From Desulfobacteraceae bacterium 4572_35.2 (lineage in GTDB: Bacteria > Desulfobacterota > Desulfuromonadia > Desulfuromonadales > Desulfuromonadaceae), in contig NBLY01000005.1 in NCBI GenBank assembly GCA_002084665.1, positions 1 through 34,693 of the forward strand: 34,693 bases of DNA. Direction: 5' to 3'. The position numbers and the translations under genes are program-made. Position 1 is the stretch's first letter. Each line of letters starts with the position of its first letter. Below the pieces are notes generated by a model, which was not told where the DNA came from, searched no databases, and worked only from the letters and a program-made list of their open reading frames with translations. Shown here piece after piece: positions 6,746 through 29,110 of the stretch.

Positions 6746-6748
6746 TTG

Positions 6749-8053: not shown

Positions 8054-8075
8054 TTTGCAATGAAGGGTGTTTGAT

Positions 8076-9534: not shown

Positions 9535-9966
9535 ATGGAGAATGTTACGTCACAATTACCTTTATCAGCACTCACGCTGCTGCCACATCGACCGCCAATG
9601 ATCCTTGTCGATCAGTTGGTCGAATTTGAAGTAGGGCAGGGACGCGTTTCAGCAACGGTTGATGCAAAGGATCTGTTTGTTACTCAAGATGGCACCTTGG
9701 AGAGCGTTGTGTTGATAGAGTTGGTCGCTCAAAGTTATGCCACCATCAAGGGCTATGCTGACCTGATCAATCAGCGTTCAGTACAGCGCGGTTTTTTGGT
9801 CGGTAGTCGCACCTTTAAAGTGTTGCGTTGCCCCCATGTTGGTGAGTCGTTAATGATTGATATTACCACCGTTGCCGAGTTGGATAGTTTTTCAGTGATC
9901 AATGGTGTCATACGGGTTGGTGATGAAGTGATTGCCGAAGGGAGTGTTAAGTTATGGTTGCCCTGA
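9535..9966 (+). CDS. Hotdog-fold 3-hydroxyacyl-ACP dehydratase (FabZ/ApeP-like)
   Basis: Small hotdog protein of 143 residues. LLPHRPPMILVDQLVE carries the FabZ-type N-terminal PHRxPM pattern with the candidate catalytic His near residue 18. The central helix ESVVLIELVAQSYATIKGY holds the acidic partner, as in FabA/FabZ. It should dehydrate 3-hydroxyacyl-ACP during elongation. Aryl-polyene systems use two unlike dehydratases that can pair (ApeI and ApeP); the second is at 13699. It begins 2 nt after the lyase stop and overlaps the LolA-like gene by 13 nt. Confidence 0.8.
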   Translation: MENVTSQLPLSALTLLPHRPPMILVDQLVEFEVGQGRVSATVDAKDLFVTQDGTLESVVLIELVAQSYATIKGYADLINQRSVQRGFLVGSRTFKVLRCPHVGESLMIDITTVAELDSFSVINGVIRVGDEVIAEGSVKLWLP

Positions 9967-10601
9967 AATGGTGTTTAACGCTGTTGCTGTGGCTTAGTAT
10001 CACCTTACCCGCTATGGGTTGGACGACTGAAGTTGCTCTGAGTGCTGAAGTAACGCAGCGCCTCGCTGTTGCCGCGCAACAGGTCGAAACATTACACAGT
10101 GATTTTGTCCAAGAAAAATACCTGAGTATATTTGAAGAAAAATTGATCTCAACGGGGCAGTTTTATTATCAAAAACCAGATCAGCTACGTTGGGAGTTGT
10201 TGGAGCCGGTTGGTTCAGGTTTTGTCATTACTGGTGATTCAGGTCAACGCTGGCATGAGCGCATTGACGGTAGTGAATCATTTAAGCTCGATCAAGACCC
10301 GGCCATGGCACTGATTGCAGAGCAATTGTTTGCGTGGGCAAAAGCCGATTTAGCATGGATAAAGCAAAACTACACCATCAGTGTGGTGAGTGAACAGCCG
10401 ATACAACTGAAGCTGGTTCCCCTTGAAGCGGCGGCACAATTTCTCAGTCATTTAATGATCACTTTTAACGATAGCGATCGCTATGTGGTCGCCGTTGAAA
10501 TACATGAAAGTGATGGCGATTCGACTCGAATCAACTTTAACAACTCTGTGGTAAATAGTGAAATAAACGACGCTATTTTTAGCGATAGGTGTTTAAAGTA
10601 G
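9954..10601 (+). CDS. LolA-like periplasmic outer-membrane lipid/lipoprotein carrier
   Basis: Secreted protein of 215 residues with a signal peptide (MVALKWCLTLLLWLSITLPAMG). The mature part has the LolA-like pattern VETLHSDFVQEKYLSIF..LISTGQFYYQKPDQLRWEL. In aryl-polyene clusters this type sits next to the MMPL exporter and probably shuttles the polyene lipid across the periplasm; chromosomal LolA carries lipoproteins. The 13-nt overlap with the dehydratase and the immediate abutment to the exporter support coupled expression. Confidence 0.85.
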   Translation: MVALKWCLTLLLWLSITLPAMGWTTEVALSAEVTQRLAVAAQQVETLHSDFVQEKYLSIFEEKLISTGQFYYQKPDQLRWELLEPVGSGFVITGDSGQRWHERIDGSESFKLDQDPAMALIAEQLFAWAKADLAWIKQNYTISVVSEQPIQLKLVPLEAAAQFLSHLMITFNDSDRYVVAVEIHESDGDSTRINFNNSVVNSEINDAIFSDRCLK

Positions 10602-13010
10602 ATGTTCGTAACTTTGTATGAACTGTTAGCTAAACGCTCTGGTTTGTTGCTGCTTAGTTACGCTGTTTTTGCCGTACTAAGTGTGAGTTGTATTCTCTTT
10701 ATTCAGCAAAGTGAGAATATCGAGTCGTTATTACCCGATACAGCTGGTACTGAAGTTCGGCGAGATTTTAATTGGCTCCAAAAAGCGCCCTTTGCTCGTA
10801 AGGTGCTGATTGATCTTCATGCACAGCCCGAAGTGACCGCCGAGCAATTAAAAGAGACGGCGTTAACGCTGCATGGTGCCGTGACCCCTTTTTTTACCAA
10901 AGTGTTAAGTGGCCCACCATTGGAGGTGCAGCATAACTTGCCGGCGTTGTTGTTACAGGCGTTGCCTAATCTGGTTAGCGAAAACGATTTAATGGTCATT
11001 GAACAGCGCTTACAGCAACACAGCATTCGCCAACAATTAACCCAACTACGTGAACAACTATTTACCCCACAAGGGTGGATGACCAAGCAGCAGCTGCAAC
11101 GCGATCCGTTAGCGTTGTGGCAGATTAGTGCCGGCCATTTACGCCATCTAAATCCGATGGCACATTCGGATCAACAGCAACGCGATTTTGTCAGTCGCGA
11201 TGGCCGCCATCGCTTAATTGTCGCCGATACCGATATTGCCATTGGTGATGTGATTGCCGGTGGCAAATTGATGGATCAAGTGCAGCAGTGTGTTGATCTT
11301 TACGTACCAGCGGGGATCACTGCCACGGTAATCAGCGGTCACCAGTATACCATTGCCAATGCGCGTACCATTCAGCGTGATCTACGGGTGGTGCTCGGTG
11401 TGTCAACTGTTGCCATTTTGCTGATTTTTATTTTGGCCTTACGCAGTTGGCGCGCGTTGTTTGTGTTTATGTTGCCCGCTTCGGTATTGGGTTTTTCAGC
11501 CGCAACGGTGTCGCTATTTTTCCCAACAGTATCGGGAATCACCATTGGCTTTGGTGCGGTGTTGCTCGGCATAACGGTTGATTTTACCTTGCATGTGTAT
11601 TTTTCATTGCGCCACAGCGGTCAGCCGCAACAACAATTACGCCGCTTAACCCCGCCGTTGATCGGGGGGGCGTTAACCAGCTTTTTAGCCTTTAGTGTGT
11701 TGTTGGCATCATCGCTACCCGGTCAGCGTCAATTAGCCGTTTTTTCCATGACAGCGATTATGCTGGCAGCGTTGCTGGCCTTGATTGTTATGCCCCACCT
11801 TTGTGGCCGTAGTGATAAACGGCACCATCACAGCTGTGATGATTCAGTACCATTACCGCAACGGGGCAAGGGGGTTGTTGTCATTTGGGTGTTGGTGATG
11901 CTGCTGTGCGCCGTGGCGGCACCACAGCTCCAGTTTGACGGTGATATGCGTAGTTTGAGTGTGTCGACTCCGTCATTACGTGCCGGCGAGCAACAGTTAC
12001 GCCAGGTTTGGGGCAACATGCGTAGCAGCGCGTTGTTGTTTGCCCGCGGTGAAACTCTCGATGAAGCGCTGGTGGTAAACGATGAGATCTATCGCGTGGT
12101 GGCGGGACAACAAAGTATTGCTGATCCTGAAAAACCGCCGCACCTTGTCAGTTTAGCCAGTATTTTGCCGTCGCCACAGCAGCAACAACGTAGCCGTGAA
12201 TTGTGGCATAAATTCTGGCTAAAGCATCAACAGCGGCTTGTCGAACGGTTACAGCAACAGGGCGGCGAGATCGGCTTTTCATCTTCGGCTTTTAAGCCGT
12301 TTATCTCTTGGCTTAATCAGCCGACTGCTGGCGTTGACCTTAACTTTTGGCACCAAGCAGGTTTTACTGACGCAATGAGCGGCTTGATGATTGATGATTC
12401 GAGTTCAACCTCAGCTACAAGTGGGGTGGCCTTAATCTCATTGATTGACGAAACTGAATTGACTCCACAGCTACAACAGCAGTTGGCTGCCGTTGATAAT
12501 ACCATTGTCATTGCCCAAGGGATTTTTCGTCAGCAATTGAGTCAGGCGTTAGCTCACGATTTTATCCGTTTTATCATCATGGCGTTAGTGGTAGTGGTGG
12601 CGGTATTGGTTGTTTGGTATCGGCGTCTCTCGTCGGTGCTGTTAGCGTTGCTGCCTGTTGGTAGCGGCATGCTGTTTATGTTTGGCGCAATGGGCTGGTT
12701 TGGATTAAGTTTTAATCTGTTTAACGTGATTGCTGCGATCCTAATTATTGGTTTGGGGGTCGATTACGGTATTTTTATGCTCAGTCGTTGCGATGGTAGT
12801 GGCTGTCAACAATCTGAACATGCGGTGTTGGTGTCAGCGTTAACCACCTTGGCCGGTTTTGGCTCATTGGTGTTGGCCCAACATCCAGCAATGCACTCCA
12901 TTGGGGTGACGGTACTGTTTGGTATTAGTGCTGCGGTGCTAACGGCGTTGTGCGTTGTGCCAGCGATCTATCAACGCTTAAATCGTGAGCAAAGCGGTGG
13001 TGAAAGATGA
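10602..13010 (+). CDS. MMPL/RND-family exporter
   Basis: Inner-membrane exporter of 802 residues with the RND plan: one N-terminal transmembrane helix (LLSYAVFAVLSVSCILFI), a periplasmic loop to about residue 260, a block of helices to about 395, a second helix near 425, a second loop, and a final helix block from about 650. Charged residues within membrane helices, GITVDFTLHVYF and GLGVDYGIFMLSR, are the putative proton-relay Asp residues. Expected to export the polyene lipid toward the LolA-like carrier. Same position and partners as in aryl-polyene clusters. Start ATG directly follows the LolA-like stop. Confidence 0.9.
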   Translation: MFVTLYELLAKRSGLLLLSYAVFAVLSVSCILFIQQSENIESLLPDTAGTEVRRDFNWLQKAPFARKVLIDLHAQPEVTAEQLKETALTLHGAVTPFFTKVLSGPPLEVQHNLPALLLQALPNLVSENDLMVIEQRLQQHSIRQQLTQLREQLFTPQGWMTKQQLQRDPLALWQISAGHLRHLNPMAHSDQQQRDFVSRDGRHRLIVADTDIAIGDVIAGGKLMDQVQQCVDLYVPAGITATVISGHQYTIANARTIQRDLRVVLGVSTVAILLIFILALRSWRALFVFMLPASVLGFSAATVSLFFPTVSGITIGFGAVLLGITVDFTLHVYFSLRHSGQPQQQLRRLTPPLIGGALTSFLAFSVLLASSLPGQRQLAVFSMTAIMLAALLALIVMPHLCGRSDKRHHHSCDDSVPLPQRGKGVVVIWVLVMLLCAVAAPQLQFDGDMRSLSVSTPSLRAGEQQLRQVWGNMRSSALLFARGETLDEALVVNDEIYRVVAGQQSIADPEKPPHLVSLASILPSPQQQQRSRELWHKFWLKHQQRLVERLQQQGGEIGFSSSAFKPFISWLNQPTAGVDLNFWHQAGFTDAMSGLMIDDSSSTSATSGVALISLIDETELTPQLQQQLAAVDNTIVIAQGIFRQQLSQALAHDFIRFIIMALVVVVAVLVVWYRRLSSVLLALLPVGSGMLFMFGAMGWFGLSFNLFNVIAAILIIGLGVDYGIFMLSRCDGSGCQQSEHAVLVSALTTLAGFGSLVLAQHPAMHSIGVTVLFGISAAVLTALCVVPAIYQRLNREQSGGER

Positions 13011-13699: not shown

Positions 13700-14079
13700 T
13701 GAGTCAAATGCGAAATGCTTTGCTAGAGTGCCAAACCGCTGCCGCTACCCTAATAGATGGTGTGGTGTGCCAACGCTATTGTTTACCTGCTGATTTTGTC
13801 GGTTTTGATGGTCATTTTCCCGATTATCCGATTGTGCCGGCGGTGGTGCAAATTTTGATGGCCCAAATTGTTGCTGAACAGCATCTGGTTGCCCAACTGT
13901 CGATTGGTGCCATTGATCGGTCGAAATTTCACCGTCAACTTAAACCCTTCGATCTGATTGATACCTATTGCCAACCGAAACAGGTGCGCGGCAAATCGGT
14001 GATCGACTGTCAGTTGAAGATTGATGATGAGGTGGTAGCGGCTTTTTGGTTGGTGTTGAATGGGGAGGATCAAGGATGA
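13699..14079 (+). CDS. Hotdog-fold dehydratase (FabA/FabZ-like, ApeI-type)
   Basis: Second hotdog protein, about 126 residues. GHFPDYPIVPAVVQILMAQ matches the FabA/FabZ catalytic block, with candidate catalytic His39. The acidic catalytic residue usual in the central helix (PGVxxxE) is replaced (PAVVQILMAQI has Gln in that region), as can happen in partner subunits. It may pair with the dehydratase at 9535. ATG 13699 overlaps the previous TAA by one base and is preferred to the longer ATG 13672 in the track, which would extend 27 nt into the lipoprotein gene. Confidence 0.75.
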   Translation: MSQMRNALLECQTAAATLIDGVVCQRYCLPADFVGFDGHFPDYPIVPAVVQILMAQIVAEQHLVAQLSIGAIDRSKFHRQLKPFDLIDTYCQPKQVRGKSVIDCQLKIDDEVVAAFWLVLNGEDQG

Positions 14080-14534
14080 AAAAACGGTGGTTTCCCAAGG
14101 TAGATAACGCGCCAGAACCTTTGAGCTTCACCGTTGAACGCCAAGTTCGCTTTGAAGAGGTTGATGCCATCGGTATTGTTTGGCATGGCCGTTATCCCAG
14201 CTATTTTGAAGATGCGCGTACTGCTCTGTGTGCTCAATTTGGTCTAGGTTATATGGATTTTCACGCCAAAGGGGTGATCGTGCCGATTAAGCAGATGCAT
14301 ATTGATTATCGCCTACCGCTGCGCTTTGAAGAGCTGTTTACCATTGAGGGGCGTTGGCATTGGAGTGAAGCGGCACGAGTTAATATTGAATTTATTTTAC
14401 GTAATCAACAGCAACAGATTGTGACAACTGGCTATTCAGTACAGATGATGTTAGACCATGACTCGAATATTTTGGTGGTTCCACCCACCTTTTATCAGCA
14501 ATTTCTCCAGCGCTGGAAAGAGGGCAAACTGTGA
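14076..14534 (+). CDS. 4HBT/YbgC-like acyl thioesterase
   Basis: Hotdog thioesterase of about 152 residues. The 4-hydroxybenzoyl-CoA thioesterase signature VDAIGIVWHGRYPSYFEDAR is complete, with catalytic Asp30 and His37. It would release acyl chains from ACP or CoA, either as proofreading or to off-load the finished polyene. Thioesterases of this type are standard in aryl-polyene clusters. ATG 14076 (ATGA overlap with the dehydratase, GGGGAGG upstream) is chosen over the TTG at 14046 listed in the track. Confidence 0.85.
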   Translation: MKKRWFPKVDNAPEPLSFTVERQVRFEEVDAIGIVWHGRYPSYFEDARTALCAQFGLGYMDFHAKGVIVPIKQMHIDYRLPLRFEELFTIEGRWHWSEAARVNIEFILRNQQQQIVTTGYSVQMMLDHDSNILVVPPTFYQQFLQRWKEGKL

Positions 14535-15673
14535 TGAATCGATCCGTACATATTACTGATTACGCTTTGGTTACTGGTTTAGGTTGTGATGTTAAGACAG
14601 TGTGGTCGCGTTTAGTTGCTGGTGACAGTGCGATTCGCCCTGTTGAGCATTTCAAGACCACGAATTGCTTGGCAAAGAGCGCAGCATTAGTGAACGATTT
14701 GCCCTGTCAGGCCGGTGAGTCGCGCCTTTATCCGATACTGGAACAGTTGCTAGAGCAACTTGATTGTGTGCCACAAAGTGCGCGTTTGATCACTGCGACC
14801 ACCAAGGGCGCGATTGATCTGCTTGAAAACGACTGTCAGCACCACGGTCAGGTTAGCGCTGCCGCTGCCGTGGTGCCAAGTAGCATGACCAGTTGGCTGG
14901 CTCGCCAACTTGATGTAGACGATAATGGTATCAACATCAACGCCGCCTGTGCTTCATCGACCTTAGCGATTGCGCGTGGGGCTGGATTGATCGCTCATGG
15001 TGTTGCCGAGGTGGTGGTGGTCTGTTGTGCGGATATTGTCAGTGAATTTGTTTTGTCAGGTTTCTCGGCGTTGCAGGCGCTTTCAGATCAACCGAGTCGG
15101 CCCTTTGATGTCGATCGCAACGGCCTCACCCTCGGTGAGGGTGCTGCGGCGGTGGTGCTGATGAGCGAAGATGCGGCACAGCGTTATCATCGCGTTAAGC
15201 ACGCTGAAGTGTGTGGCTGGGGGGCTGCGAACGATGCCAACCATATTACTGCACCAGCACGCGATGGCTGTGGTTTGATTCAAACGGTGCGGCAAACATT
15301 GAATCGCGCCCAAGTGAAGGCCGATGAGGTGGCAGCAATCAGTGCTCATGGTACCGGAACGGTTTATAACGATATGATGGAACTCACTGCTTTTAAAGCT
15401 ATTTTTGGCGAACGACCACTACCAATCTCATCCATTAAAGGTGCGCTAGGTCATACCCTTGGTGCTGCCGGTGGTATTGAGGTGGTACTCGGTATTGCCA
15501 GTTTGAATGACCAACTGGTGCCACCGACCTGTGGCTGCGTGAATCCAGAACCGCTTGGCGTAGGGCAGATTAGCGCCACAGCGCAACCGTTTAGCGGTGA
15601 TCTGTTGCTATCGACCAATTCTGGCTTTGGTGGTGTGAACGCCGCACTATTGTTAAGACGGGGGCAGCAATGA
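14534..15673 (+). CDS. Beta-ketoacyl-ACP synthase (KS, ApeO-like)
   Basis: Condensing enzyme of about 379 residues, slightly short at the N-terminus. Active-site Cys139 is in NAACASSTLAIARG, His in SAHGTGTVYND, Lys/His in SIKGALGHTLGAAGG. The C-terminus is NSGFGGVNAALLLRRG. Followed with a 4-nt overlap by a KS N-terminal-only protein, the same pairing as the KS and chain-length-factor-like partner of E. coli-type aryl-polyene synthases, so the two probably form a heterodimer. GAGGG is nine bases before ATG 14534; the in-frame GTG 14531 is possible. Confidence 0.9.
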   Translation: MNRSVHITDYALVTGLGCDVKTVWSRLVAGDSAIRPVEHFKTTNCLAKSAALVNDLPCQAGESRLYPILEQLLEQLDCVPQSARLITATTKGAIDLLENDCQHHGQVSAAAAVVPSSMTSWLARQLDVDDNGININAACASSTLAIARGAGLIAHGVAEVVVVCCADIVSEFVLSGFSALQALSDQPSRPFDVDRNGLTLGEGAAAVVLMSEDAAQRYHRVKHAEVCGWGAANDANHITAPARDGCGLIQTVRQTLNRAQVKADEVAAISAHGTGTVYNDMMELTAFKAIFGERPLPISSIKGALGHTLGAAGGIEVVLGIASLNDQLVPPTCGCVNPEPLGVGQISATAQPFSGDLLLSTNSGFGGVNAALLLRRGQQ

Positions 15674-16362
15674 TGAATTGTAACGTGGCAGGTTTTGGTT
15701 GGGTGGCAGTCGATGGTCTTGGCGCAGGCAAGTCGGGTACGTTTCATGGTTTTACCGCTGGTGAACTTGCCCCAGTAACACGCCAAGATCTGTTCGACCG
15801 TCCTGATCGTCGTTTTGGTCGCATGGACTCGTTCTCGAAACTCGGCTTGGCAGCGATCACCTTTGCTCTGCGCGATGCTGGCTTAGAAGAGTGGCAAGAG
15901 AAGCGATCCGTCGGTATTTTAGCCGATACGTTTAGCGGTTGTTTGCAAACGGATTGCGATTATTTTAATAGCGTTATTCCTGATGAGGGCGTTTTTGCCA
16001 GCCCGCAACTTTTTGCCTACACCCTATCGAACACTTTTTTAGGCGAGGCGGCACTACGTTTTGGTCTGACTGGCAATTGCCAAGTGGTTAATTGTTGTGC
16101 TGATGACGGCCTGTCGGTGATTCATCAAGCCATAGAGTCGATCCAGTGGGGCGAAGATGAACGGGTGGTTGTTGGCTTTTGTGAGCTAAGTTCGAACGGC
16201 GCATTAAACGCTCCAGGGGCTTTGTTTATGGTGCTTGAAGCGGCCGATGTGGCTCGATCATCGTTAATGGCGCTAACGATTAACCAACAGGGGGCAATGA
16301 GTTGTCATGGTAAGTCTGTTGATACGGTAACTATGTTGGTAGAGGTTTTAGCTGGTACTTGA
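15670..16362 (+). CDS. KS N-terminal-domain-only protein (ApeC/CLF-like)
   Basis: 230 residues that match only the first half of a ketosynthase (the Ketoacyl-synt_2 type). The pieces FGRMDSFSKLGLAAITFALRDAGL and ILADTFSGC are KS-like. In the nucleophile region it reads VVNCCADDGLS, so a Cys is in register, but the SSG context is lost and the C-terminal half with both catalytic His and the Lys is absent. This is a natural short family in aryl-polyene clusters, not an obvious truncation: it ends cleanly and no remnant follows. Probable chain-length partner of the preceding KS. Last gene of the first operon. Confidence 0.75.
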   Translation: MMNCNVAGFGWVAVDGLGAGKSGTFHGFTAGELAPVTRQDLFDRPDRRFGRMDSFSKLGLAAITFALRDAGLEEWQEKRSVGILADTFSGCLQTDCDYFNSVIPDEGVFASPQLFAYTLSNTFLGEAALRFGLTGNCQVVNCCADDGLSVIHQAIESIQWGEDERVVVGFCELSSNGALNAPGALFMVLEAADVARSSLMALTINQQGAMSCHGKSVDTVTMLVEVLAGT

Positions 16363-16459
16363 TCCATTCTTAAGTCTCTGCGATCACTCGTTTAGATTAA
16401 AGCCGACATTGTGGTATTGGAAAAGAGCAGTCTGGAGCTGGAAAAAAGGTGCTGGAGTA

Positions 16460-17509: not shown

Positions 17510-18778
17510 ATGAGAATGAAACTGGTTTATCCACGCTGGGCTAAATTAGAACGTCAAACCGAATTTCACTTGCCACCCCATGGCCCTGTTGTGTTTGCCG
17601 CAACCTTGCCAGACGAAGTGGATGTGAGTTTTGTTGATGAGAACGTGCAGACTCTTGACTTCAATGAATCGACCGACTTGGTTGCCTTATCAGTGATGTT
17701 GACCTGTCAATTGCCACGTGCTTTTGAGATTGCCGCTGAGTTTCGTGAGCGTGGTATCCCTGTCATGTTTGGTGGTATTGCCGTCATGTTGCACGCTGAA
17801 GAGGTGCAACAACATGCCGACTGCGTTTTCCTTGGTGAGACCGAAGGGCGGATGCAAACGGTGGTGGATGACTTCAATAATGGTTGCCTGAAGAAGGTTT
17901 ACAACTTCATGCATCAACATCCACCGATTGAACTGGTGGGTACCGCACGGCGTGAAATTTTAGACCGTGACCTTTACAACTACCGTGGCGTGCAAATGCT
18001 TGATCTGGTCCACACCTCGCGTGGCTGTAAGTTTAAGTGTTTCCCGTGCTGTACTGGTTATCTCGGTGGTCAGCAGTTTCGTCCCCGTCCCATCGATCAG
18101 GTGATTGCAGAGCTGGAAGCGATCCCTAATAACCGTCTGTTCTTGGTCGATAATTCGATGGCGCAGGATAAACAGTGGTTGTTGGAACTGTTTGAGGCCA
18201 TGAAGCCGCTCAAGAAAAAATGGGTATCTCATCCGCTGTTGGATGACGATGAAGTGCTCAAAGCTGCCGCTGATGCAGGGGCATGGTACGTCTATCAAGC
18301 GGTGTTCAATACCTCTGATGTGATTCGTGACCGCGTGAAACGTCTGAAGGATCATGGTATTGGCGTTGAGGGAACCATCCTTCTCGGTACCGATGAGCAA
18401 AGTGAAAGTGATATCCGTCATCTGGTCGATTTCTTGATGGAGATCGAGTTGGATGTGGCAGAATTTACTATCATGACCCCGTTTTTGAAGTCACCATTAC
18501 GGACGCAAATGGAAAAAGAGAACCGTATCCTATCCAATAATTGGGGCGACTATACTGCTGATAAGGTGGTGTTTCAACCCAAGCAGATGACACCCGACAA
18601 ACTGCAAGAGTTGTTTTACTATGCCTGGGATACCTTCAATGCCGATGGTGGTTATCAGTTGAAAATGGGTAAGCTGTTTAAGCAGGTCATTACCCGTGAA
18701 ATTGAAGATGGAACCTATCGTCGTTATGACACCAAGCGTCGTCGTCGTTTTAATGTGAAGGATGCGGGAGTAAAATAA
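17510..18778 (+). CDS. Radical SAM protein 1 (B12-binding-type)
   Basis: 422 residues. The [4Fe-4S]/SAM motif CKFKCFPC (Cys173, Cys177, Cys180) follows TSRG, as in cobalamin-dependent radical SAM proteins. The N-terminal domain (about 1-140; VDVSFVDENVQTLDF, VALSVMLTCQLPRAFEIA, IPVMFGGIAVML, CVFLGETEG) has the Rossmann-like plan of a B12-binding domain, without the DxHxxG His, as is usual in this class. Reaction unknown: methylation, cyclisation, desaturation or C-C bond formation are all known in the class. GAGGAG nine bases before ATG. First of three tandem radical SAM genes, overlapping the second by one base. Confidence 0.85.
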   Translation: MRMKLVYPRWAKLERQTEFHLPPHGPVVFAATLPDEVDVSFVDENVQTLDFNESTDLVALSVMLTCQLPRAFEIAAEFRERGIPVMFGGIAVMLHAEEVQQHADCVFLGETEGRMQTVVDDFNNGCLKKVYNFMHQHPPIELVGTARREILDRDLYNYRGVQMLDLVHTSRGCKFKCFPCCTGYLGGQQFRPRPIDQVIAELEAIPNNRLFLVDNSMAQDKQWLLELFEAMKPLKKKWVSHPLLDDDEVLKAAADAGAWYVYQAVFNTSDVIRDRVKRLKDHGIGVEGTILLGTDEQSESDIRHLVDFLMEIELDVAEFTIMTPFLKSPLRTQMEKENRILSNNWGDYTADKVVFQPKQMTPDKLQELFYYAWDTFNADGGYQLKMGKLFKQVITREIEDGTYRRYDTKRRRRFNVKDAGVK

Positions 18779-20157
18779 TGAGTCGCGTGTTTATTCTGTC
18801 GAGCAATGTATCCACAGATCCGTATCCGGTGTATCCACTCGGGATGGCGATCATTGCTTCAGTACTTGAAGAGCAGGGCCATGAGGTGAAGCAGTATGAC
18901 TTTCTCGTTCACGAGCAATCATATCCTGCCTTAGCTGAAGCGTTGTCTGTATATCAACCCGATTTCGTTTTGATGTCATTGCGCAATATCGATAATGTTG
19001 ATTCTTTTAGTTCTGATGACAACTGGTATCTATCCGATGCTCGTAAACTGGTGACGGAGATTAAAACCCGTGTTGATGTGCCGGTGATTGTCGGTGGCCC
19101 CGCCTTTTCAATTATGCCTGAAAAAATTCTCGCCTATATCGGTGCCGATTACGGTGTGGTTGGTGAGGGGGAACAGGTTGTCGCCCCTTTGGTCGCGGCA
19201 TTAGAGCGCGGCGAAACGATTGACTCGCTCCACAGTAGCGCACAACCGTTGACAGGGATACAGATGAAAGGGGCAACATTGGTTCCTGAGTATGTCGATT
19301 TTTATCAACAAAAAAGCGGTATGATTAATCTGCAAACCAAGCGTGGTTGTCCGTTTCGCTGCGTCTATTGTACCTATCCGGGGCTGGAAGGTAATTGTTT
19401 CCGTCCGCGTGAAGTGGGTGCGGTTGTCGATGATATTGAACGGATGCAGCGTGATTATGGCACCAATCATCTATTTTTTACCGACTCCATCTTTAACGAC
19501 AGTCAAGGTCATCACCTTGAATTAGCCGAGGAGATGATTCGGCGCAAGGTCGGTATTAAATGGTGCTCTTTCTTTCGTCCCCAAGGGATCACCGCCGAAA
19601 GCCTAGCGCTGCTCAAACGTTCAGGGTTGTACGCGATGGAGATGGGAACTGATGCGGGTTGTGATCGCACTATGGCCGGGATTAATAAGTGCTTTACTTT
19701 CGAAGAGGTGCTCCGTTGTCACAAGCTTACTGTTGAGGCAGAAATCCCTAGTGCTCATTTTATTATGTTCGGTGGCCCGAATGAAACGCCAGATACGATT
19801 CATGAAGGTTTGAAGAATATAGAACAACTCGATCACAGTGTGGTGTTTGCCTTTTCAGGGATTCGTATTCTGCCTAAATCAACATTGCTAGAGTGTGCTG
19901 TGGCGGATGGTGTTGTGGCTGCGGATGTTGATCTGCTTAAGCCGGTCTATTACCTTTCGCCTGATATCGATCAAGAGTGGATGAATCAGGAAATCTTAAA
20001 CTCCTTTTCGGGCCGCAGAGATCGAATTTTCCCGCCATCGGCTGGTCAAGAACAGATGGCGATGATGAACAATTTTGGTTTTAAAGGCATTTTGTGGGAT
20101 CAAATGGTTTCATTCGGTAACGCACCCAAACGTAAGAGAGCCCGTCGAAATGGTTAA
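18778..20157 (+). CDS. Radical SAM protein 2 (B12-binding-type)
   Basis: 459 residues. N-terminal cobalamin-type domain: YPVYPLGMAIIASVLEEQGHEVKQYD, VPVIVGGPAFSIMPEKIL, ADYGVVGEGE. Radical SAM motif CPFRCVYC (Cys191, Cys195, Cys198) after TKRG. FMFGGPNETPDTI is the usual beta-strand motif late in the barrel. The basic C-terminus KRKRARRNG may be surface exposed. Start ATG overlaps the previous TAA by one base. The product cannot be predicted; a tailoring step on a polyene, acyl or lipid chain is inferred from context. Confidence 0.88.
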   Translation: MSRVFILSSNVSTDPYPVYPLGMAIIASVLEEQGHEVKQYDFLVHEQSYPALAEALSVYQPDFVLMSLRNIDNVDSFSSDDNWYLSDARKLVTEIKTRVDVPVIVGGPAFSIMPEKILAYIGADYGVVGEGEQVVAPLVAALERGETIDSLHSSAQPLTGIQMKGATLVPEYVDFYQQKSGMINLQTKRGCPFRCVYCTYPGLEGNCFRPREVGAVVDDIERMQRDYGTNHLFFTDSIFNDSQGHHLELAEEMIRRKVGIKWCSFFRPQGITAESLALLKRSGLYAMEMGTDAGCDRTMAGINKCFTFEEVLRCHKLTVEAEIPSAHFIMFGGPNETPDTIHEGLKNIEQLDHSVVFAFSGIRILPKSTLLECAVADGVVAADVDLLKPVYYLSPDIDQEWMNQEILNSFSGRRDRIFPPSAGQEQMAMMNNFGFKGILWDQMVSFGNAPKRKRARRNG

Positions 20158-21622
20158 GCGTCCACGCATACTTTTAGTGCATCCTCTCGGTTATGCTAGC
20201 GATAAAGCGGGCGGTGATGTGTCGCGCTTAGCGAACATTATGCCACCCCTCGGTTTGGCGGCGATTGCGGCCTATCTGTTAGAGCGTGATGTCGATGTGG
20301 ACATTATCGACTGCTATGCCTTTCCCGATTCTGATCAGCGTATTATTGATTATGTGCGCACGTATAAGCCAGCATGGCTAGGTTTAAGCTGCACCACCTC
20401 AAGTTTTCTTGACGGGGTGCGCATCGCTCAACTCGCCAAGGCTGAACACCATGAACTACAGGCAGTGGTCGGTGGCGCGCATGTGTCGGCATTAAAAGAA
20501 CAACTGCTGGATGATTATAGTGATCTTGATGCGTTGATTGTCGGTGAAGGGGAGGAGACTATGTATCAACTTCTCTCGACCGAAGCTGCGCAGTGGCCAA
20601 GTTTGGCGGGTGTTGTTTGCCGTGATTCCTCAGGCTGTGCAACCTTTAGCGGCTACCGCAAGCCAGCACTTGACTTGGATAGCCTGCCGTTCCCCGCTTA
20701 TGACAAGTTGACAGGTTTTCCCGAAGCGTATCAGTTGCCCATTTTTAATTACCCTAAGGCTCCTAATACCAGCTGTATCTCCAGTCGTGGTTGCCCTTAC
20801 GCCTGTAGTTATTGTGATCGCTCGGTGTTTCAGCGCACCTTCCGCTTTAATTCAGCCGAGTACCTCTACGCGCACATGAAGTTTTTGCGCGACAAGTATA
20901 ATATCCGCCATATCAACTTTTACGATGACCAGTTTACCTTTCATCGTCAGCGGGTGCTCGATGTCACCAAGATGATGATTGATAAACCTCTCGGCATCAC
21001 CTTCAACTGTGCTATCCGCGCCGAACATGTTGATGATGAGTTGATTGGCCAAATGAAAAAAGCTGGTTGTTGGATGATGAGTTTAGGCATTGAGACGGGT
21101 GATCCCGACCTGCTGGCTCAGCATCGGCAAAATCCTGATTTAGATATGCTCGCCGACACCATTCGCTTAATCAAAAAGCATGGTATTCGCGTTAAGGGGT
21201 TGATGATGGTCGGTTTGCCGGGTGAAACTGAGCAAAGTATCCGCCGCAGTATGGATTATATTTTCAAGCTGCCGATTGATGATCTCAATGTGGCCAAATT
21301 TACGCCTTTTCCCGGTTCACCGCTGTATGAGAATATCCATGAGTTGGGTACTTTTAGCGAGGATTGGGCGCAGATGGATTGCATGGGCTTTCAATTTGTC
21401 ACTCATGGTATGACCGAAGAGAAGCTCGAATCGTTGTTTGCAAATTTTTATCGCGCCCATTTTCACCGTCCCGAAGTGTTATGGGGCTATGTGGCCATGC
21501 TGTGGAAATCGCCCCATAGTTGGTGGCGATTTGTTAAAAACCTCACCGGTTTTCTCTCCTTTATTAAGCGTGGCAAGCGGATAAGCGATGGCGAAACAGC
21601 AGGGGGAGATGGTGACAAGTAA
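20150..21622 (+). CDS. Radical SAM protein 3 (B12-binding-type)
   Basis: 490 residues from ATG 20150. B12-type domain: IMPPLGLAAIAAYLLERDVDVDIID, AVVGGAHVSALKE, ALIVGEGEETMYQL. Radical SAM motif CPYACSYCD (Cys215, Cys219, Cys222). Later MMSLGIETGDPDLL and GLMMVGLPGETEQSI are typical of BchE-like/P-methylase-like members. The C-terminal part beyond about residue 400 is an extra region ending in a basic tail. ATG 20150 overlaps the previous stop by 8 nt and is preferred to the track start 20075, which lies deep in the previous gene. Confidence 0.88.
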   Translation: MVKRPRILLVHPLGYASDKAGGDVSRLANIMPPLGLAAIAAYLLERDVDVDIIDCYAFPDSDQRIIDYVRTYKPAWLGLSCTTSSFLDGVRIAQLAKAEHHELQAVVGGAHVSALKEQLLDDYSDLDALIVGEGEETMYQLLSTEAAQWPSLAGVVCRDSSGCATFSGYRKPALDLDSLPFPAYDKLTGFPEAYQLPIFNYPKAPNTSCISSRGCPYACSYCDRSVFQRTFRFNSAEYLYAHMKFLRDKYNIRHINFYDDQFTFHRQRVLDVTKMMIDKPLGITFNCAIRAEHVDDELIGQMKKAGCWMMSLGIETGDPDLLAQHRQNPDLDMLADTIRLIKKHGIRVKGLMMVGLPGETEQSIRRSMDYIFKLPIDDLNVAKFTPFPGSPLYENIHELGTFSEDWAQMDCMGFQFVTHGMTEEKLESLFANFYRAHFHRPEVLWGYVAMLWKSPHSWWRFVKNLTGFLSFIKRGKRISDGETAGGDGDK

Positions 21623-22805
21623 CGCTGACCTCAAGTCGCCAGCTATTTTGGTTGCGGTGCCGTTATATAATCATAGCGCGACGGTGCGTGATGTGGTGCA
21701 GCGTTGTTTAAAACAGCATCAACATGTTGTGGTTGTCGATGATGGCAGCAGTGATGGTGGCGCGCACAATGTTGCCGACCTAACTGTTATCGTGCTGAGT
21801 CATGAGGTTAATCGTGGTAAAGGGCAGGCGATTTTAACGGCAGCCGATTATGCCCGTGATCATGGTTTTAGTCACTTGATTACCATTGATGCCGATGCCC
21901 AACATCACCCCGAGGATCTACCGCTGTTTTTTGCCGCAATTGAGGCTGAACCGTTAGCGATTTATGTCGGTCTACGCGATTTTGATAGCGCAAATGTTCC
22001 TAACAGTTCCCGTTTTGGTCGTCAGTTTTCCAATTTTTGGTTACGGGTGGAAACAGGTTGCAAGCTCGGTGATGTGCAGAGTGGTTACCGTGCTTATCCC
22101 GTACAGGTGTTAGATCATCTAACTTTTACCGATCAACGCTATTCGTTTGAGGTTGAAGTTTTAGTTAAGGCGAGTTGGGCGGGAGTGCCGCTGTATGATG
22201 TGCCGATTCAGGTATATTATGCTCCCGGTTGTGAGCGTATTTCCCATTTTGACAAGCTGAGAGACAACATGAGGTTGGCGTGGCTAAATAACCGATTATG
22301 CTTACGTTCTATTGCGCCGTGGCCACACAAAAGATTGGTGAAAGCTGAAAGATCACCGTTCTCGTGGCGGCAGCCGTTACGGTCGTTAGCCAACCTTTTG
22401 GCACAGGATATATCGCCTTCTAAGTTAGCTTTAGCGATGGCAATTGGCTTGCTATTAGGAACCTTACCGCTCATCGCTTGTCATACGGTGGCAACACTTT
22501 TTGCCGCGGGCTTTATCGGTGTGAATCGCTACCTTGCCGTAGCCGCAGGTAACTTATGTATGCCACCATTGGTTCCTGCGCTATGTATTGAAGTTGGTTA
22601 TTATCTGCGTAATGGAGAATGGCTTACGGAAATCAGCTATCAAACTCTTGGTACTCAGTGTTTAGATCGTATTTTTGAGTGGTTTCTTGGCTCATTACTT
22701 CTTGGGCCGTTATTTGCTTTGATTGGTTGGCTGGTGGTGTATGGCTTAACGCGCTGGATGCAACAACGTGCTTGGCAATCTTCACCATCGGAGGATGTGT
22801 TGTGA
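21588..22805 (+). CDS. GT2 glycosyltransferase fused to DUF2062
   Basis: 405 residues. The N-terminal family 2 glycosyltransferase domain has HVVVVDDGSSDGG, NRGKGQAI and the metal-binding TIDADAQHHPEDL, as in dolichyl-phosphate-mannose-synthase-like enzymes, with GDVQSGYRAYP and RYSFEVEVL. From about residue 270 a DUF2062 membrane domain follows (ALAMAIGLLLGTLPLIACHTV, two further helices). This fusion is typical of aryl-polyene/flexirubin clusters and may glycosylate a lipid acceptor at the membrane (inference). It overlaps radical SAM 3 by 35 nt; ATG 21609 and GTG 21612, close to GGGGGAG, are alternative starts. Confidence 0.85.
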   Translation: MAKQQGEMVTSNADLKSPAILVAVPLYNHSATVRDVVQRCLKQHQHVVVVDDGSSDGGAHNVADLTVIVLSHEVNRGKGQAILTAADYARDHGFSHLITIDADAQHHPEDLPLFFAAIEAEPLAIYVGLRDFDSANVPNSSRFGRQFSNFWLRVETGCKLGDVQSGYRAYPVQVLDHLTFTDQRYSFEVEVLVKASWAGVPLYDVPIQVYYAPGCERISHFDKLRDNMRLAWLNNRLCLRSIAPWPHKRLVKAERSPFSWRQPLRSLANLLAQDISPSKLALAMAIGLLLGTLPLIACHTVATLFAAGFIGVNRYLAVAAGNLCMPPLVPALCIEVGYYLRNGEWLTEISYQTLGTQCLDRIFEWFLGSLLLGPLFALIGWLVVYGLTRWMQQRAWQSSPSEDVL

Positions 22806-23707
22806 ATCAGCAGACCGCTGAAAAACAGCTTGGTTCAAACTGGGGATATCGGGCTTTTTATCTGCTAATTCGGTTGGGTGGGCGTAAAGCTGCCTACGCA
22901 TTACTTTACCTAGTTTGCGCCTGTTATGTGTTGTTTTGGCCGCAAGTTCGGCGAAGTTGTGATCCCTATCTTAATCATCGCTTTCCAAGCTCTGTTGGCT
23001 TTACTCGGTTGTGGCAACAGTATAAAATGGTGGTTTCGTTTGGCAAGATGATGGTCGATCGTGCCATTGTCGGTTCGTTAGGAGCTGATCAGATTATTGT
23101 TAGTCTTCAGGGTCGAGAACAACTACTCAATATTCGCGATCAAAAGCGTGGCATGATTTTATTGATGTCGCATGTTGGCTGCTGGCAGTTAGCGATGTCG
23201 GCCATGGGCGCTCTCAACGAGCCGATTCACATGTTGATGCATGGTCACGCCAGTTCATTTGAACGACAGGATTACGAACAAGACAACGGTGAAGTGAAAC
23301 ATGAATCACCGTATCGTGTTATCGATCCACAAGGTTATCTCGGTGGTGCTTTTGAGATGCTCGCAGTGTTGAAGCAAGGCGGCATCTTATCCATAATGGG
23401 CGACCGTGTGCCTAAGGACGAAAAGAATCGTGTCCATGTTACTTTTTTAGGCCAGCAGGTCGCGTTGCCGATGAGCGCCTACCATTTGGCCTCATCGACG
23501 GGCGCGCCTCTAGTGGTGCTCACCAGTCGCAAGTGTGATGAAAACCATTATGAAATGGTGGTAGCCGATGTGATTGAGGTGCCTGAAGGGTTGGGCCGTA
23601 AGCCTGAAGCATTTACCGTTTATGCTCAACGTTATGCGACAACTTTGGAAAAATATTGTCAGAATAATCCCTACCAATTCTTTAATTTTTTTGATATGTG
23701 GAATTAA
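22802..23707 (+). CDS. LpxL/HtrB-like lipid acyltransferase
   Basis: LPLAT-superfamily acyltransferase of the lipid A lauroyltransferase type, about 301 residues. An N-terminal membrane segment AAYALLYLVCACYVLFW is followed by a motif I region LMSHVGCWQLAM with His124. The acidic residue expected in HX4(D/E) is Gln129. Other conserved pieces are GGILSIMGDRVPKDE and FLGQQVALP. Such genes accompany the GT2-DUF2062 gene in aryl-polyene clusters and probably acylate the lipid anchor. GTG 22802 (GTGA overlap, GGAGG seven bases before) is chosen over 22679, which lies inside the glycosyltransferase gene. Confidence 0.85.
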   Translation: MNQQTAEKQLGSNWGYRAFYLLIRLGGRKAAYALLYLVCACYVLFWPQVRRSCDPYLNHRFPSSVGFTRLWQQYKMVVSFGKMMVDRAIVGSLGADQIIVSLQGREQLLNIRDQKRGMILLMSHVGCWQLAMSAMGALNEPIHMLMHGHASSFERQDYEQDNGEVKHESPYRVIDPQGYLGGAFEMLAVLKQGGILSIMGDRVPKDEKNRVHVTFLGQQVALPMSAYHLASSTGAPLVVLTSRKCDENHYEMVVADVIEVPEGLGRKPEAFTVYAQRYATTLEKYCQNNPYQFFNFFDMWN

Positions 23708-26140: not shown

Positions 26141-26395
26141 ATGACATTGAAAGAACAAATTAAGAAAATTTTGATTGAAGATCTAAATCTTGAAGATATT
26201 ACTGCTGAAGAGATTGCCGATGATGAGCCGTTGTTTGGTGATGGTTTAGGTCTTGACTCTCTTGATGCGGTGGAGTTGGCCGTGTTGGTGCAAAAAAACT
26301 TTGGTGTTGAAATCAAGGATATGGAAGAGGGTCGACCTGCGCTGCAATCGGTACAAGCGTTAGCTCAATTTATCGAAGATAAGCAAGGAAAGTAA
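26141..26395 (+). CDS. Acyl carrier protein 2
   Basis: 84-residue acidic carrier protein with phosphopantetheine site Ser40 in GLGLDSLDAVELAV. The stretch DDEPLFGDGLGLDSLDAVELAV is like that of ACPs in flexirubin/aryl-polyene and ladderane-like clusters, and differs from ACP1 (LGLDSLDTVDMV). It heads the second operon and precedes a KS/KS-like pair by 3 nt, so it probably serves that pair. Confidence 0.95.
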   Translation: MTLKEQIKKILIEDLNLEDITAEEIADDEPLFGDGLGLDSLDAVELAVLVQKNFGVEIKDMEEGRPALQSVQALAQFIEDKQGK

Positions 26396-26398
26396 TAG

Positions 26399-27589
26399 AT
26401 GGCTAACTCTGTTTGCGTAACTGGCATGGGCTGTTTGTGTGCAGCGGGAGATACCCTCGATGAGGCGGTAACGTCGATGATGGCTGGTGAGCGTCACGCT
26501 GGCGATCCGTCGCTATTTAAGTCGAGCCAGCCACAACTCTTCCCCGTTTTTGCGGTACGTAGTCTGGTGCCTAAAGCTGCGGAAGATGTGTTTTTACGCA
26601 CCAGTCAATTGGCGTTAAATGCCGCAAAACAGGCGGTTGAACAGTCGCAGTGGGATTTGACTGAACTACGTAAGTTGAAGGTTGGTGTCTGTATTGGCAC
26701 CACTGTTGGTTGCACTATGGATGTCGAATCGTTCTATGGTGATTATCGTAACGGTCAAGATCCTGAAATGCTCGCCATCGACTGTTTTGTTGAGAGTAAC
26801 CCTGCTACGGTAATTAGTCGTCATTTCGGTTTGAATGGCCCTTGTCAAACCATTGTTAATGCCTGCTCGTCAGGAACCGATGCTATCGGTATGGGCGCGA
26901 TGTGGATCGAGAATGGTCTGTGTGATGTGGTTCTTGCTGGCGGTGCTGATGAACTGTGTCGTACCACCTATAACGGCTTTGCCTCGTTGCAAATCAACGC
27001 TGCAGTGTTGAGTCGGCCCTTTTCTGCGGATCGTTGTGGTTTAAATCTCGGCGAAGGGGCTGCTGTTTTAATTCTTGAATCTGAAACAGTGCGTCAGCAA
27101 CGGCAACATGTTGTCGCTCAAGGTTATGTTCTCGGCTACGGCAGTGGTACCGACGGCTGGCACTTGACGGCACCTCATCCTGAGGGGCGTGGTTTGAAAC
27201 AAGCTTTGCAGGAAGCCTTAGACAGGAGTGGTGTTGAGCCTGACCAGCTGGCTTTTGTTAACACCCACGGTACGGGAACCAAGGACAATGATCGCGTTGA
27301 AAGTTTGGTGCTCGCTGAACTATTACCGTCGACACCGTTTCATTCAACCAAAGGCTATACCGGTCACGCGTTAGGCGCTGCTGGGGCTCTTGAAGCCGCT
27401 TTTTGTTTAGCTTTTTTGCGTCAGCGACAGATCCCCGCCAGTGCTGGTTTTACTGGTCAAGACCCTGAGTTTAGTGTGACTCCGGTGGTGGAAAATAGTG
27501 CTGTTGTCGGCGATATTGCCCTGTCAGAATCATTGGCCTTTGGTGGTAATAATGCCGTCCTTATTTTGGCCAGAGGAGAGATGGCATGA
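26399..27589 (+). CDS. Beta-ketoacyl-ACP synthase (KS) of the second operon
   Basis: 396-residue condensing enzyme. TGMGCLCAAGDTLDEAV opens the fold. Cys156 is in NACSSGTDAIGMG, His in NTHGTGTKDND, Lys/His in STKGYTGHALGAAGALE, and the C-terminus is LAFGGNNAVLIL. Complete by motif. It forms an ATGA-type overlap with a Cys-less KS homologue, the arrangement of a KS-alpha/KS-beta pair, and follows ACP2 closely. Substrate unknown. Confidence 0.9.
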   Translation: MANSVCVTGMGCLCAAGDTLDEAVTSMMAGERHAGDPSLFKSSQPQLFPVFAVRSLVPKAAEDVFLRTSQLALNAAKQAVEQSQWDLTELRKLKVGVCIGTTVGCTMDVESFYGDYRNGQDPEMLAIDCFVESNPATVISRHFGLNGPCQTIVNACSSGTDAIGMGAMWIENGLCDVVLAGGADELCRTTYNGFASLQINAAVLSRPFSADRCGLNLGEGAAVLILESETVRQQRQHVVAQGYVLGYGSGTDGWHLTAPHPEGRGLKQALQEALDRSGVEPDQLAFVNTHGTGTKDNDRVESLVLAELLPSTPFHSTKGYTGHALGAAGALEAAFCLAFLRQRQIPASAGFTGQDPEFSVTPVVENSAVVGDIALSESLAFGGNNAVLILARGEMA

Positions 27590-28683
27590 CACTTTTAAAA
27601 CAGTCGATGGCGATTCAGGGGATTGGTTGCGTTGGCGGCTTTGGCAGTGGCAATGATCAGTTTGTCAGTGCTTTAAAAGCGGGCCATACCAGTGCAACAA
27701 CCGTCGAACTCAATCACCCTGCGGGGCAACAAACCCTACCGGCGTTATTGGCTAACACCGATCGTTTAACGGATTTTGTCTCTCGGCGTTCATTGCGTCG
27801 CATTGATCATTTTTCGCGCATGGCTCTTCTCGGTGGCTACTTAGCCATTGAGGATGCTGGGCTTGCTGTTGAAGACTGTGGCCGTATTGGGATTATTGTT
27901 GCTAGTGGTTATGGGGCGACCAATACTACCTTTAACTTCCTCGGCTCGATCATTGACGACGGCGATAGTTGCGCGTCGCCAACCAGTTTTTCAAACTCTG
28001 TCCATAACGTTGCTGCGGCATATTTATCGATGCAATTGCAGGCACTCGGTCCCAACCTGACGATCAGCCAGTTTGATCTGTCGATTAACGCAGCGCTACA
28101 TAATGCTGCCTGTTGGTTGGCGCAGAGACGTGTTGATACCGTGCTTGTTGGCGGTGTAGATGAACATAGTTCGTTGCTCAATTATTGCTATCAGCGCTAT
28201 TTTGCCAATTCTGATGCGGTCGAGCAGATTGATCCATTTGATTTTGCTCGTCAAAGTGCGGTGGTGGGTGAAGGGGCCGCGTTTTTGGTGCTCAGTCGTC
28301 ATGCTGATAAGGCAAAATATGGTTTTATCGCTGGCCTCGATGCTGGAGATTTTAGCCAGCGTAGCACAGTTGAAGATAGTGATTTACTCCTTATCGGAGC
28401 TGATGGACATCAGACCTGTGGCGCAATGTATGAGCAATTGCCCACAGCGCAGTCGCTACTCAATTGCACGCCGTGCTATGGCAGTCTACCTGTTGGTCAA
28501 GCCTTTGATTTGGCTGCGGCTGGGCTGATGTTGCGTGAGCAAAGCTGTTATGGTGTTGCCCGACAGCAACCTGTTGGTTGTTCGGCTCAGAGTTCTTTTG
28601 ATTCGATTGCGTCACTTAAGTGTACGGCGAACGATCAATTCAGTTTAATCCGCTTATCTCGGCGTGGGGGTGATGATGCGTGA
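27586..28683 (+). CDS. KS-like protein without active-site Cys (chain-length-factor-like)
   Basis: 365-residue ketosynthase homologue. KS-like pieces: IQGIGCVGGFGSG, RRIDHFSRMALLGGYLAIEDAGL, GIIVASGYGATNTTFNFL, SPTSFSNSVHNVAAAYLS, DPFDFARQSAVVGEGAAFLVLS. The nucleophile region reads ISQFDLSINAALH, so the catalytic Cys is absent, and the HGTGT and KxxxGH motifs are also not recognisable. This is the pattern of a chain-length factor/KS-beta partner for the preceding KS. It appears complete, overlapping both neighbours. Confidence 0.8.
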   Translation: MTLLKQSMAIQGIGCVGGFGSGNDQFVSALKAGHTSATTVELNHPAGQQTLPALLANTDRLTDFVSRRSLRRIDHFSRMALLGGYLAIEDAGLAVEDCGRIGIIVASGYGATNTTFNFLGSIIDDGDSCASPTSFSNSVHNVAAAYLSMQLQALGPNLTISQFDLSINAALHNAACWLAQRRVDTVLVGGVDEHSSLLNYCYQRYFANSDAVEQIDPFDFARQSAVVGEGAAFLVLSRHADKAKYGFIAGLDAGDFSQRSTVEDSDLLLIGADGHQTCGAMYEQLPTAQSLLNCTPCYGSLPVGQAFDLAAAGLMLREQSCYGVARQQPVGCSAQSSFDSIASLKCTANDQFSLIRLSRRGGDDA

Positions 28684-29110
28684 ACAGGATGTGCCGCAAG
28701 ATATCGGCGTATTGGAAGAAAACAGAGTTGTCGCTTATGCTGTTGATGAACAGGGGAACTACTGCCTGACCACCACTGCGGGCTGGGATCCTGTCAACGA
28801 AGCCAATCGTATTGCATGGGAAGATATTAAAGAGCAACTGGATGAGGTGCGAGTGAAAATCGAGGCGGGTCGGGCCAGTATTTTAGCCTATTATATGACT
28901 CGTGCGCAAATGGATCGCTCATTGTTGGCCAGCTATTCAGGCATATCATCATGGCGTGTGTGGCGTCACTTGAAACCTGGGCCATTTAACAAGATTAGTG
29001 CAGAAGATCGTCAGAAATACGCCAATCTTTTCCGTATTTCATCAGCGCAACTGTTTCAGTTGCCTGCCGCCGATTCGCTGCCAACTGAAACAACAACGGA
29101 TACACTTTAG
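28676..29110 (+). CDS. Uncharacterised HTH-like protein between KS and BtrH-like genes
   Basis: About 144 residues, no family name I can assign with certainty. The C-terminal half has a short helical stretch MDRSLLASYSGISSWRVWRHLKPGPF that looks like a helix-turn-helix (LLAsYSGisxWrVxRHL), followed by EDRQKYANLFRISSAQLFQL, a pattern seen in XRE-type DNA-binding folds. The N-terminal half is acidic (QEVxxDIGVLEENRVV-like, GWDPVNEANRIAWEDIKEQLDEVRVKIEAG). It could be a cluster regulator or a small structural partner of the BtrH-like protein. ATG 28676 overlaps the KS-like stop by 8 nt; GTG 28664 is the longer option. Confidence 0.6.
   Translation: MREQDVPQDIGVLEENRVVAYAVDEQGNYCLTTTAGWDPVNEANRIAWEDIKEQLDEVRVKIEAGRASILAYYMTRAQMDRSLLASYSGISSWRVWRHLKPGPFNKISAEDRQKYANLFRISSAQLFQLPAADSLPTETTTDTL

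Follow-up and report, generated by a model that had tools for sequence, protein, structure and literature searches.

A 34,693-nucleotide stretch of contig NBLY01000005.1 of Desulfobacteraceae bacterium 4572_35.2 (assembly GCA_002084665.1; hereafter the window) is occupied almost entirely by a single cluster of the aryl-polyene/flexirubin type on one strand, and contains three consecutive genes, here named A, B, and C, for B12-type radical S-adenosylmethionine (SAM) proteins (Table 1). On sequence and predicted fold, B most likely C-methylates the aryl head group in place of the methyltransferase ApeB. The full reading, in which this is an aryl-polyene lipid locus whose three radical SAM proteins are tailoring enzymes of differing chemistry, with B as the head-group C-methylase in the role of ApeB, has about an even chance of being correct. 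B is a member of an already named family, TIGR04072, and clusters related to this one had been reported in 2009 from Geobacter, Pelobacter, Desulfotalea, and anaerobic ammonium-oxidizing (anammox) bacteria (PMC2649909). What is new here is that, in sequence comparisons, B, BzaD, and TsrM fall in one well-supported branch with a common invariant Arg69.

Three overlapping radical SAM genes

Genes A and B overlap by 1 nucleotide, B and C by 8, and C, which starts with ATG at 20150, overlaps by 35 nucleotides the GT2-DUF2062 glycosyltransferase gene that starts at 21588. The CxxxCxxC motifs begin at residue 173 in A, 191 in B, and 215 in C (Cys173/177/180, Cys191/195/198, and Cys215/219/222). An earlier note, made from the sequence without database searches, had described three overlapping B12-type radical SAM genes within a polyene-type cluster; its reading frames, cysteines, and overlaps are all reproduced, and the gene content of the surroundings agrees with it. 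Pfam B12-binding and Radical_SAM domains are detected in all three proteins; B and C lie well over the gathering score for both, with A marginally under (31.2 vs 32.1 and 27.3 vs 29.5 bits). The three cluster cysteines are kept in all 44 aligned A sequences, and AlphaFold2 models of A and B have predicted local distance difference test (pLDDT) scores of 90.9 and 88.9. Because each gene is conserved in dozens of other genomes, chance open reading frames (ORFs) are excluded. Pairwise identities among A, B, and C are 21–28%, which rules out a recent gene triplication; by sequence they are three old, separate families.

Gene B groups with TsrM and BzaD

B scores 665 bits against TIGR04072 (curated cut-off 360) over residues 3–444. 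The next curated families are BzaD (TIGR04385), at 217 bits against a cut-off of 450, and tryptophan 2-C-methyltransferase, at 144 bits, and other B12-radical SAM models give 99 bits or less. In the PDB, TsrM is the top match of a profile built from 21 B sequences (147 bits; second match 79), and a fold search with the AlphaFold model of B also finds TsrM first (TM 0.80, E 1e-27; next 1e-18). In the profile alignment Arg69 of B aligns on Arg69 of TsrM, a residue beneath the cobalt that blocks the lower axial site, makes the Co-methyl bond weaker, and is needed for tryptophan methylation (PMC8992657; PMC13331322). The arginine is invariant in 80 of 80 B sequences, those of Jettenia, Alistipes, and Flammeovirga included, and in 20 of 20 genuine BzaD sequences; B and BzaD have it in an SLRNID motif. 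Genuine BzaD are those scoring over the cut-off, and they were taken from Bacillota (the phylum of the L084 genome) because the host phylum gave one weak match, which is without the arginine. A maximum-likelihood tree places B, BzaD, and TsrM on one branch (support 99/92; 98 without long outliers).

Met63 of A and Thr82 of C stand at the Arg69 position, arguing for different chemistries, and both the arginine and the motif are missing from an HpnR-like enzyme of the same genome. The fold of A is nearest to AprD4 (6fd2; TM 0.77), and its score against the AprD4 family NF033070 is 24.6 bits (cut-off 500). C scores 168 bits against HpnJ (cut-off 577.6), 133 against BchE (481), 77 against HpnR (650), and 165 against the Sden_1168 P-methyltransferase, again far below the cut-off; TokK is a remote match. 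Orthology to housekeeping enzymes of hopanoid or bacteriochlorophyll biosynthesis, which the earlier note named as examples of an opposing reading, is rejected, all scores being far below the curated cut-offs even for C, which comes closest. A and C probably catalyze steps other than that of B.

Distribution and gene order

Among 146 Desulfuromonadia genomes (thresholds E≤1e-100 for B and C, E≤1e-60 for A), B is present in 78, A in 39, and C in 79. Full-length A is accompanied by B (>570 bits) and C in 35 of 35 genomes of the class (the window genome counted; three hit tables compared), with A directly before B, and with C directly after B in all but three genomes, where C lies elsewhere or on another contig. 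The usual setting in Desulfuromonadia is between a ketosynthase (KS) pair and GT2-DUF2062.

A second sample of 80 named loci was found through B as query. A is present in 45 of them and C in 26; 21 have the full trio and 30 have only B. Since these loci were seeded with B its universality there is by construction, but the nesting of A and C is not. B occurs alone in Bacteroidota, A and B together in many PVC (Planctomycetes, Verrucomicrobia, Chlamydiae) and Desulfobulbales loci, and all three in Desulfuromonadia, so that the trio is modular, B being the component shared throughout the seeded set. The earlier proposal of three enzymes in series on one substrate is thus only partly true. The A-B gap is 0–41 nucleotides in 42 of 44 loci. 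Taxa represented are Thermodesulfobacteriota, Omnitrophota, Lentisphaerota, Verrucomicrobiota, Bacteroidota (Alistipes, Flammeovirga), and the anammox genus Jettenia, and the Bacteroidota clusters around B contain flexirubin genes over threshold (FlxA in L110 and L102, LolB2 in L110). A viral or mobile origin of B was rejected, no relative being present among viral contigs, as was selenocysteine in A of two relatives, where TGA is the terminal stop only.

Some of these clusters contain a fourth type of radical SAM protein with a SPASM domain (AhbD/NirJ2-like; L076:6457-7521 and L100:8887-10026), located between the AMP (adenosine monophosphate) ligase and A/B in Desulfobulbales and beside B in Jettenia. 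A Geobacterales cluster (L134:6701-13600) encodes two proteins resembling A, one weakly resembling C, and a divergent B that groups with the anammox B.

A putative anaerobic head-group methylase

BzaD is assigned to the step from 5-methoxybenzimidazole to 5-methoxy-6-methylbenzimidazole, a methylation ortho to the methoxy group. Its target and that of TsrM (indole C2) are both electron-rich aromatic carbons, and in aryl polyenes the carbon ortho to the phenol is of this kind. Methylation in anaerobic benzimidazole synthesis is the task of BzaC, BzaD, and BzaE (PMC8123684; the intermediates of the pathway are given in PMC6461909), and head-group methylation is established for the aryl polyene APE_Ec, by ApeB of Escherichia coli, and for flexirubin (PMC8253772). 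No SAM methyltransferase is recognised in the scanned ORFs of the window. In the simplest reading, B is the counterpart of ApeB.

Observed directly are the identity of the genes, their conserved order and co-occurrence, the family, fold, and Arg69 of B, and the type of cluster; the product, its methylation, and the methylation site that we infer are as follows. The product would be an aryl-polyene lipid of the flexirubin/APE type, attached to the envelope of an anaerobic bacterium resembling Desulfuromonadia. The cobalamin bound by B would have no lower axial ligand, Arg69 lying beneath the cobalt as it does in TsrM, and would be loaded with a methyl group from SAM. B would pass this group to an electron-rich carbon of an aromatic ring, most likely the one ortho to the phenol in a 4-hydroxyphenyl head group, making B the cobalamin-dependent counterpart of a SAM methyltransferase. 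A would act at another step in the same product family, using radical chemistry on an AprD4-like scaffold with Met under the cobalt (if cobalamin is bound at all), and C, a BchE/HpnJ-like enzyme, would likewise act at a different step.

Several observations weigh against this reading. B and BzaD are sisters with only moderate support (86/66, and 69 in a second tree), and TsrM is represented in the tree by two fragments on a long branch. The position of TsrM Glu273 is Val or Ile in 80 of 80 B sequences and the glutamate is absent from BzaD too, so the non-radical TsrM mechanism is not to be assumed; B may still use radical chemistry, with only the cobalamin environment common with TsrM. Some clusters with B, the anammox one among them, show no ammonia-lyase in the stretch examined. 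Two aerobic-type flexirubin clusters read throughout (L140+L135 and L146) have neither B nor an obvious methyltransferase, such that a clean exchange of B for ApeB is not demonstrated. Finally, the window ammonia-lyase has lost in frame a conserved block of 45 residues that is present in 13 of 13 compared relatives and is probably inactive or misassembled, so this copy of the pathway may itself be damaged or misassembled. A straight exchange of B for a methyltransferase in the aerobic-type flexirubin clusters was considered and rejected, as DarB and an unknown ORF of ~300 residues occupy in clusters without radical SAM genes (L146) the position that B has in Flammeovirga and Alistipes (L110, L102).

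Alternative roles

The alternative that survives best, and which we nonetheless regard as unlikely, is that the trio C-methylates the polyene chain, or several sp3/sp2 lipid carbons, and not the aryl ring. Methylation is the commonest reaction of cobalamin-dependent radical SAM enzymes (PMC13331322), a set of three could introduce more than one methyl group, and the remote match of C to TokK fits such a role. However, Arg69 of B is common only to aromatic-carbon methylases in the set examined, A is nearest to a dehydratase (AprD4), and no chain-methylated aryl polyene was found in the literature examined.

Somewhat less probable is an oxygen-independent tailoring of a head group or resorcinol (hydroxylation, deoxygenation, or aromatisation) for a flexirubin-like ester, in which B would not be a methylase. 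Flammeovirga is an aerobic genus and also carries B, in a cluster with over-threshold flexirubin genes, and the kinship of B with BzaD and TsrM points to methyl transfer. Such tailoring is nevertheless consistent with the presence of DarG and DarH in the window and of a StlD/DarB-family KS on contig C53 of the same genome, with the closeness of C to HpnJ and BchE, which do oxidative chemistry, and with the location of the Bacteroidota B at the place of DarB and its unknown neighbor.

Ring closure, the original proposal for the anammox locus, would have the trio turn a polyene precursor into ladderane-type or other carbocyclic lipids, and is improbable. The anammox cluster was described by Rattray et al. 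(2009; PMC2649909), who reported that it is syntenic with Desulfotalea and has similar counterparts in Geobacter and Pelobacter, and the name of TIGR04072 (rSAM_ladder_B12) appears to derive from that locus. Beyond the name and the reported synteny with Kuenenia and Desulfotalea, the Jettenia order of AMP ligase, SPASM radical SAM protein, and B is that of Kuste3344-3343-3342 (listed in PMC4790861), and some cobalamin-dependent radical SAM enzymes form rings (PMC13142503). But Desulfotalea is without detectable ladderanes (PMC2649909), the closest characterised relatives of B are methylases and not cyclases, and the window does not match the anammox radical SAM set. Jettenia lacks orthologues of A (best 35% identity) and C (best 29%, on which orthology of C to an anammox radical SAM protein was rejected), and its B branches with that of Geobacter (99/96), apart from the group of the window and the Bacteroidota flexirubin-type loci, which makes ring closure a poor guess for the window. 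Among the unusual steps that the earlier note foresaw, methylation is therefore likely, and ring closure or C-C bond formation is displaced as the lead idea by the arene methylases nearest to B. The database name 'ladderane lipid' probably misdescribes the role of B here, and a ladderane role of the TIGR04072 family itself is worth doubting.

That the genes are remnants of a decaying cluster making nothing in this strain is very improbable, because the gapped lyase, the broken frames and two foreign inserts described below, and the incomplete draft, which could suggest it, are set against intact, highly conserved A, B, and C with their cysteines and cofactor residues, breaks that may be assembly errors, and a same-genus relative (G057, one contig) with the whole cluster and a full-length lyase.

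The surrounding cluster

The window contains together the genes by which aryl-polyene clusters are recognised: KS and chain-length-factor (CLF)-like proteins, acyl carrier protein (ACP), dehydratases, ketoreductase, thioesterase, AMP ligase, LolA, and an MMPL exporter (Table 1). The cluster encodes, among others, hot-dog dehydratases, FabG, a LolB-like lipoprotein, a PlsC acyltransferase, and an ABC exporter.

Table 1. Principal features of the window and the evidence on which each is based.
Feature	Coordinates	Strand	Basis
Phytoene-desaturase-like flavoprotein	2936..4450	+	
FlxY-like AMP ligase	6746..8053	+	470 bits, cut-off 520
Aromatic amino-acid ammonia-lyase, FlxA/HutH-like (putative source of aryl starter), 45 conserved residues missing	8067..9533	+	
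LolA-like carrier	9954..10601	+	
MMPL/RND-type exporter	10602..13010	+	
4HBT thioesterase	14046..14534	+	
KS3, ketosynthase with Cys-His-His motifs	14531..15673	+	Family scan, motif check
KS-like partner of KS3 (putatively CLF-like), without the catalytic motifs searched for	15670..16362	+	Directly upstream of A in relatives
A, B12-type radical SAM protein, 422 residues, without named family	17510..18778	+	ORF, Pfam, curated-family scores, fold
B, TIGR04072 (rSAM_ladder_B12), 459 residues, proposed aryl C-methylase	18778..20157	+	Curated family score, PDB profile/fold match, tree
C, B12-type radical SAM protein, 490 residues, HpnJ/BchE/PhpK-like but below every cut-off	20150..21622	+	Family scores
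GT2 glycosyltransferase with DUF2062 (putative envelope attachment)	21588..22805	+	Pfam; adjoins B or C in most loci
LpxL-type acyltransferase	22679..23707	+	Pfam
Acyl carrier protein	26141..26395	+	Sequence; conserved in locus
Second KS/CLF-like pair: KS5 with the catalytic motifs, KS6 with none of those searched for	26399..28683	+	
DarG-family protein	28664..29110	+	128.7 vs 70 bits
DarH, BtrH-related acyltransferase	29148..30185	+	460 vs 300 bits

The strict flexirubin set (equivalogs over cut-off, with DarA/DarB present) is not complete in the window. FlxA (409 bits, cut-off 700), FlxY, LolB2 (21.8, cut-off 60), and the DarG equivalog (127.6, cut-off 170) all score below their cut-offs, and a family scan finds no DarB in the window. 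With the DarG family and DarH over their cut-offs, the locus is called flexirubin-like, not flexirubin. The StlD/DarB-subfamily KS on contig C53 scores 565 bits (cut-off 450), and 478 against the resorcinol_DarB model (cut-off 550). It directly follows the HpnR-like B12 radical SAM gene (L150:11851-14312), and the pair possibly belongs to an independent dialkylresorcinol or stilbene-type pathway that has a dedicated methylase. A search for a consensus sigma-70 promoter was negative, which is of little weight.

Several reading frames in the window are broken. FabG and an ABC ATPase are without their N-termini, KS1 is split into two ORFs, and an ABC permease is split (1164–2935 and 30307–31981). 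These are either frame breaks of a draft genome or decay, and as the assembly is in 129 contigs and 80% complete, part of the damage may be error. A Bro-N domain gene (16409–17323; weak DinD-like match) of lower guanine-plus-cytosine (GC) content lies between the KS-like gene and A and is an insertion into the operon, relatives having nothing there. A single ORF encoding a PtuA-like ATPase and, after it, a PtuB/TIGR02646 HNH domain (23912–25642; GC about 0.37–0.41) is inserted between the LpxL acyltransferase and ACP genes, and is a putative fused Septu or retron-effector-like defense gene. Both are absent from G057. An integron-integrase-like tyrosine recombinase is seen by eye at the very start of the contig (2–925).

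Implications

Ladderane biosynthesis is an open problem for which the TIGR04072 radical SAM family is a standard candidate. If the family consists of arene methylases of aryl-polyene lipids, the ladderane synthase is to be sought elsewhere, and 'ladderane cluster' annotations in many non-anammox phyla (e.g. PMC9902471) would be misread. A tentative extension, more apt to fail than to hold, is that the Arg69 branch (TIGR04072, BzaD, and TsrM) is one class of methylcobalamin-dependent arene C-methylases, that the 'ladderane' family comprises aryl-polyene head-group methylases, that the anammox cluster encodes an aryl-polyene pathway or has evolved from one, and that A and C add two further anaerobic tailoring reactions on the polyene. 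The Arg69 comparison also offers a testable rule for cobalamin-dependent radical SAM enzymes, an arginine under the cobalt predicting methylation of electron-rich aromatic carbons. The one-contig genomes of some same-genus relatives, G057 among them, suggest that there are strains in culture in which the product can be sought.

Comparison with known systems

B resembles TsrM (tryptophan C2-methyltransferase; 6wte/6wtf) in fold, profile, and Arg69, but the two are 22% identical and Glu273, which in TsrM sits on the unique iron and keeps SAM off the cluster, is replaced in B. BzaD, which acts in anaerobic 5,6-dimethylbenzimidazole synthesis on an electron-rich arene, shares with B the branch, the SLRNID motif, the cluster motif KRGCPxxCxYCxYPxLxG, and Val or Ile at the Glu273 position; it differs in that B is below the BzaD cut-off and lies in a polyene cluster, and BzaD in a B12-ligand operon. 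A is like AprD4 in fold and C like HpnJ and BchE in sequence, but both are far below every curated cut-off and in a different pathway context.

At the level of the cluster, the anammox and Desulfotalea 'ladderane' clusters for type II fatty acid synthesis (PMC2649909) have KS paralogues, ACP, dehydratases, AMP ligase, and phytoene-desaturase-like, MMPL-type, and radical SAM genes in common with the window, and B is in the family by its curated cut-off. The window differs in having A, C, ammonia-lyase, DarG/DarH, LolA, and GT2-DUF2062, in lacking the SPASM radical SAM partner, and in the subclade of its B. The Bacteroidota flexirubin clusters (L135–L146) share with it the ammonia-lyase, DarG, DarH, an ABC transporter, and KS, ACP, GT2, and MMPL genes, but have DarB and the unknown ORF at the place of B and no radical SAM gene in the stretches examined. 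The E. coli apeA-R cluster resembles the window in its KS/CLF, ACP, dehydratases, ketoreductase, AMP ligase, thioesterase, LolA, LolB-like lipoprotein, RND/MMPL exporter, and acyltransferases; as the earlier note observed, its gene list has no radical SAM enzyme (PMC8253772 Table 1), and where it has the SAM methyltransferase ApeB, the window has three radical SAM enzymes and an ammonia-lyase.

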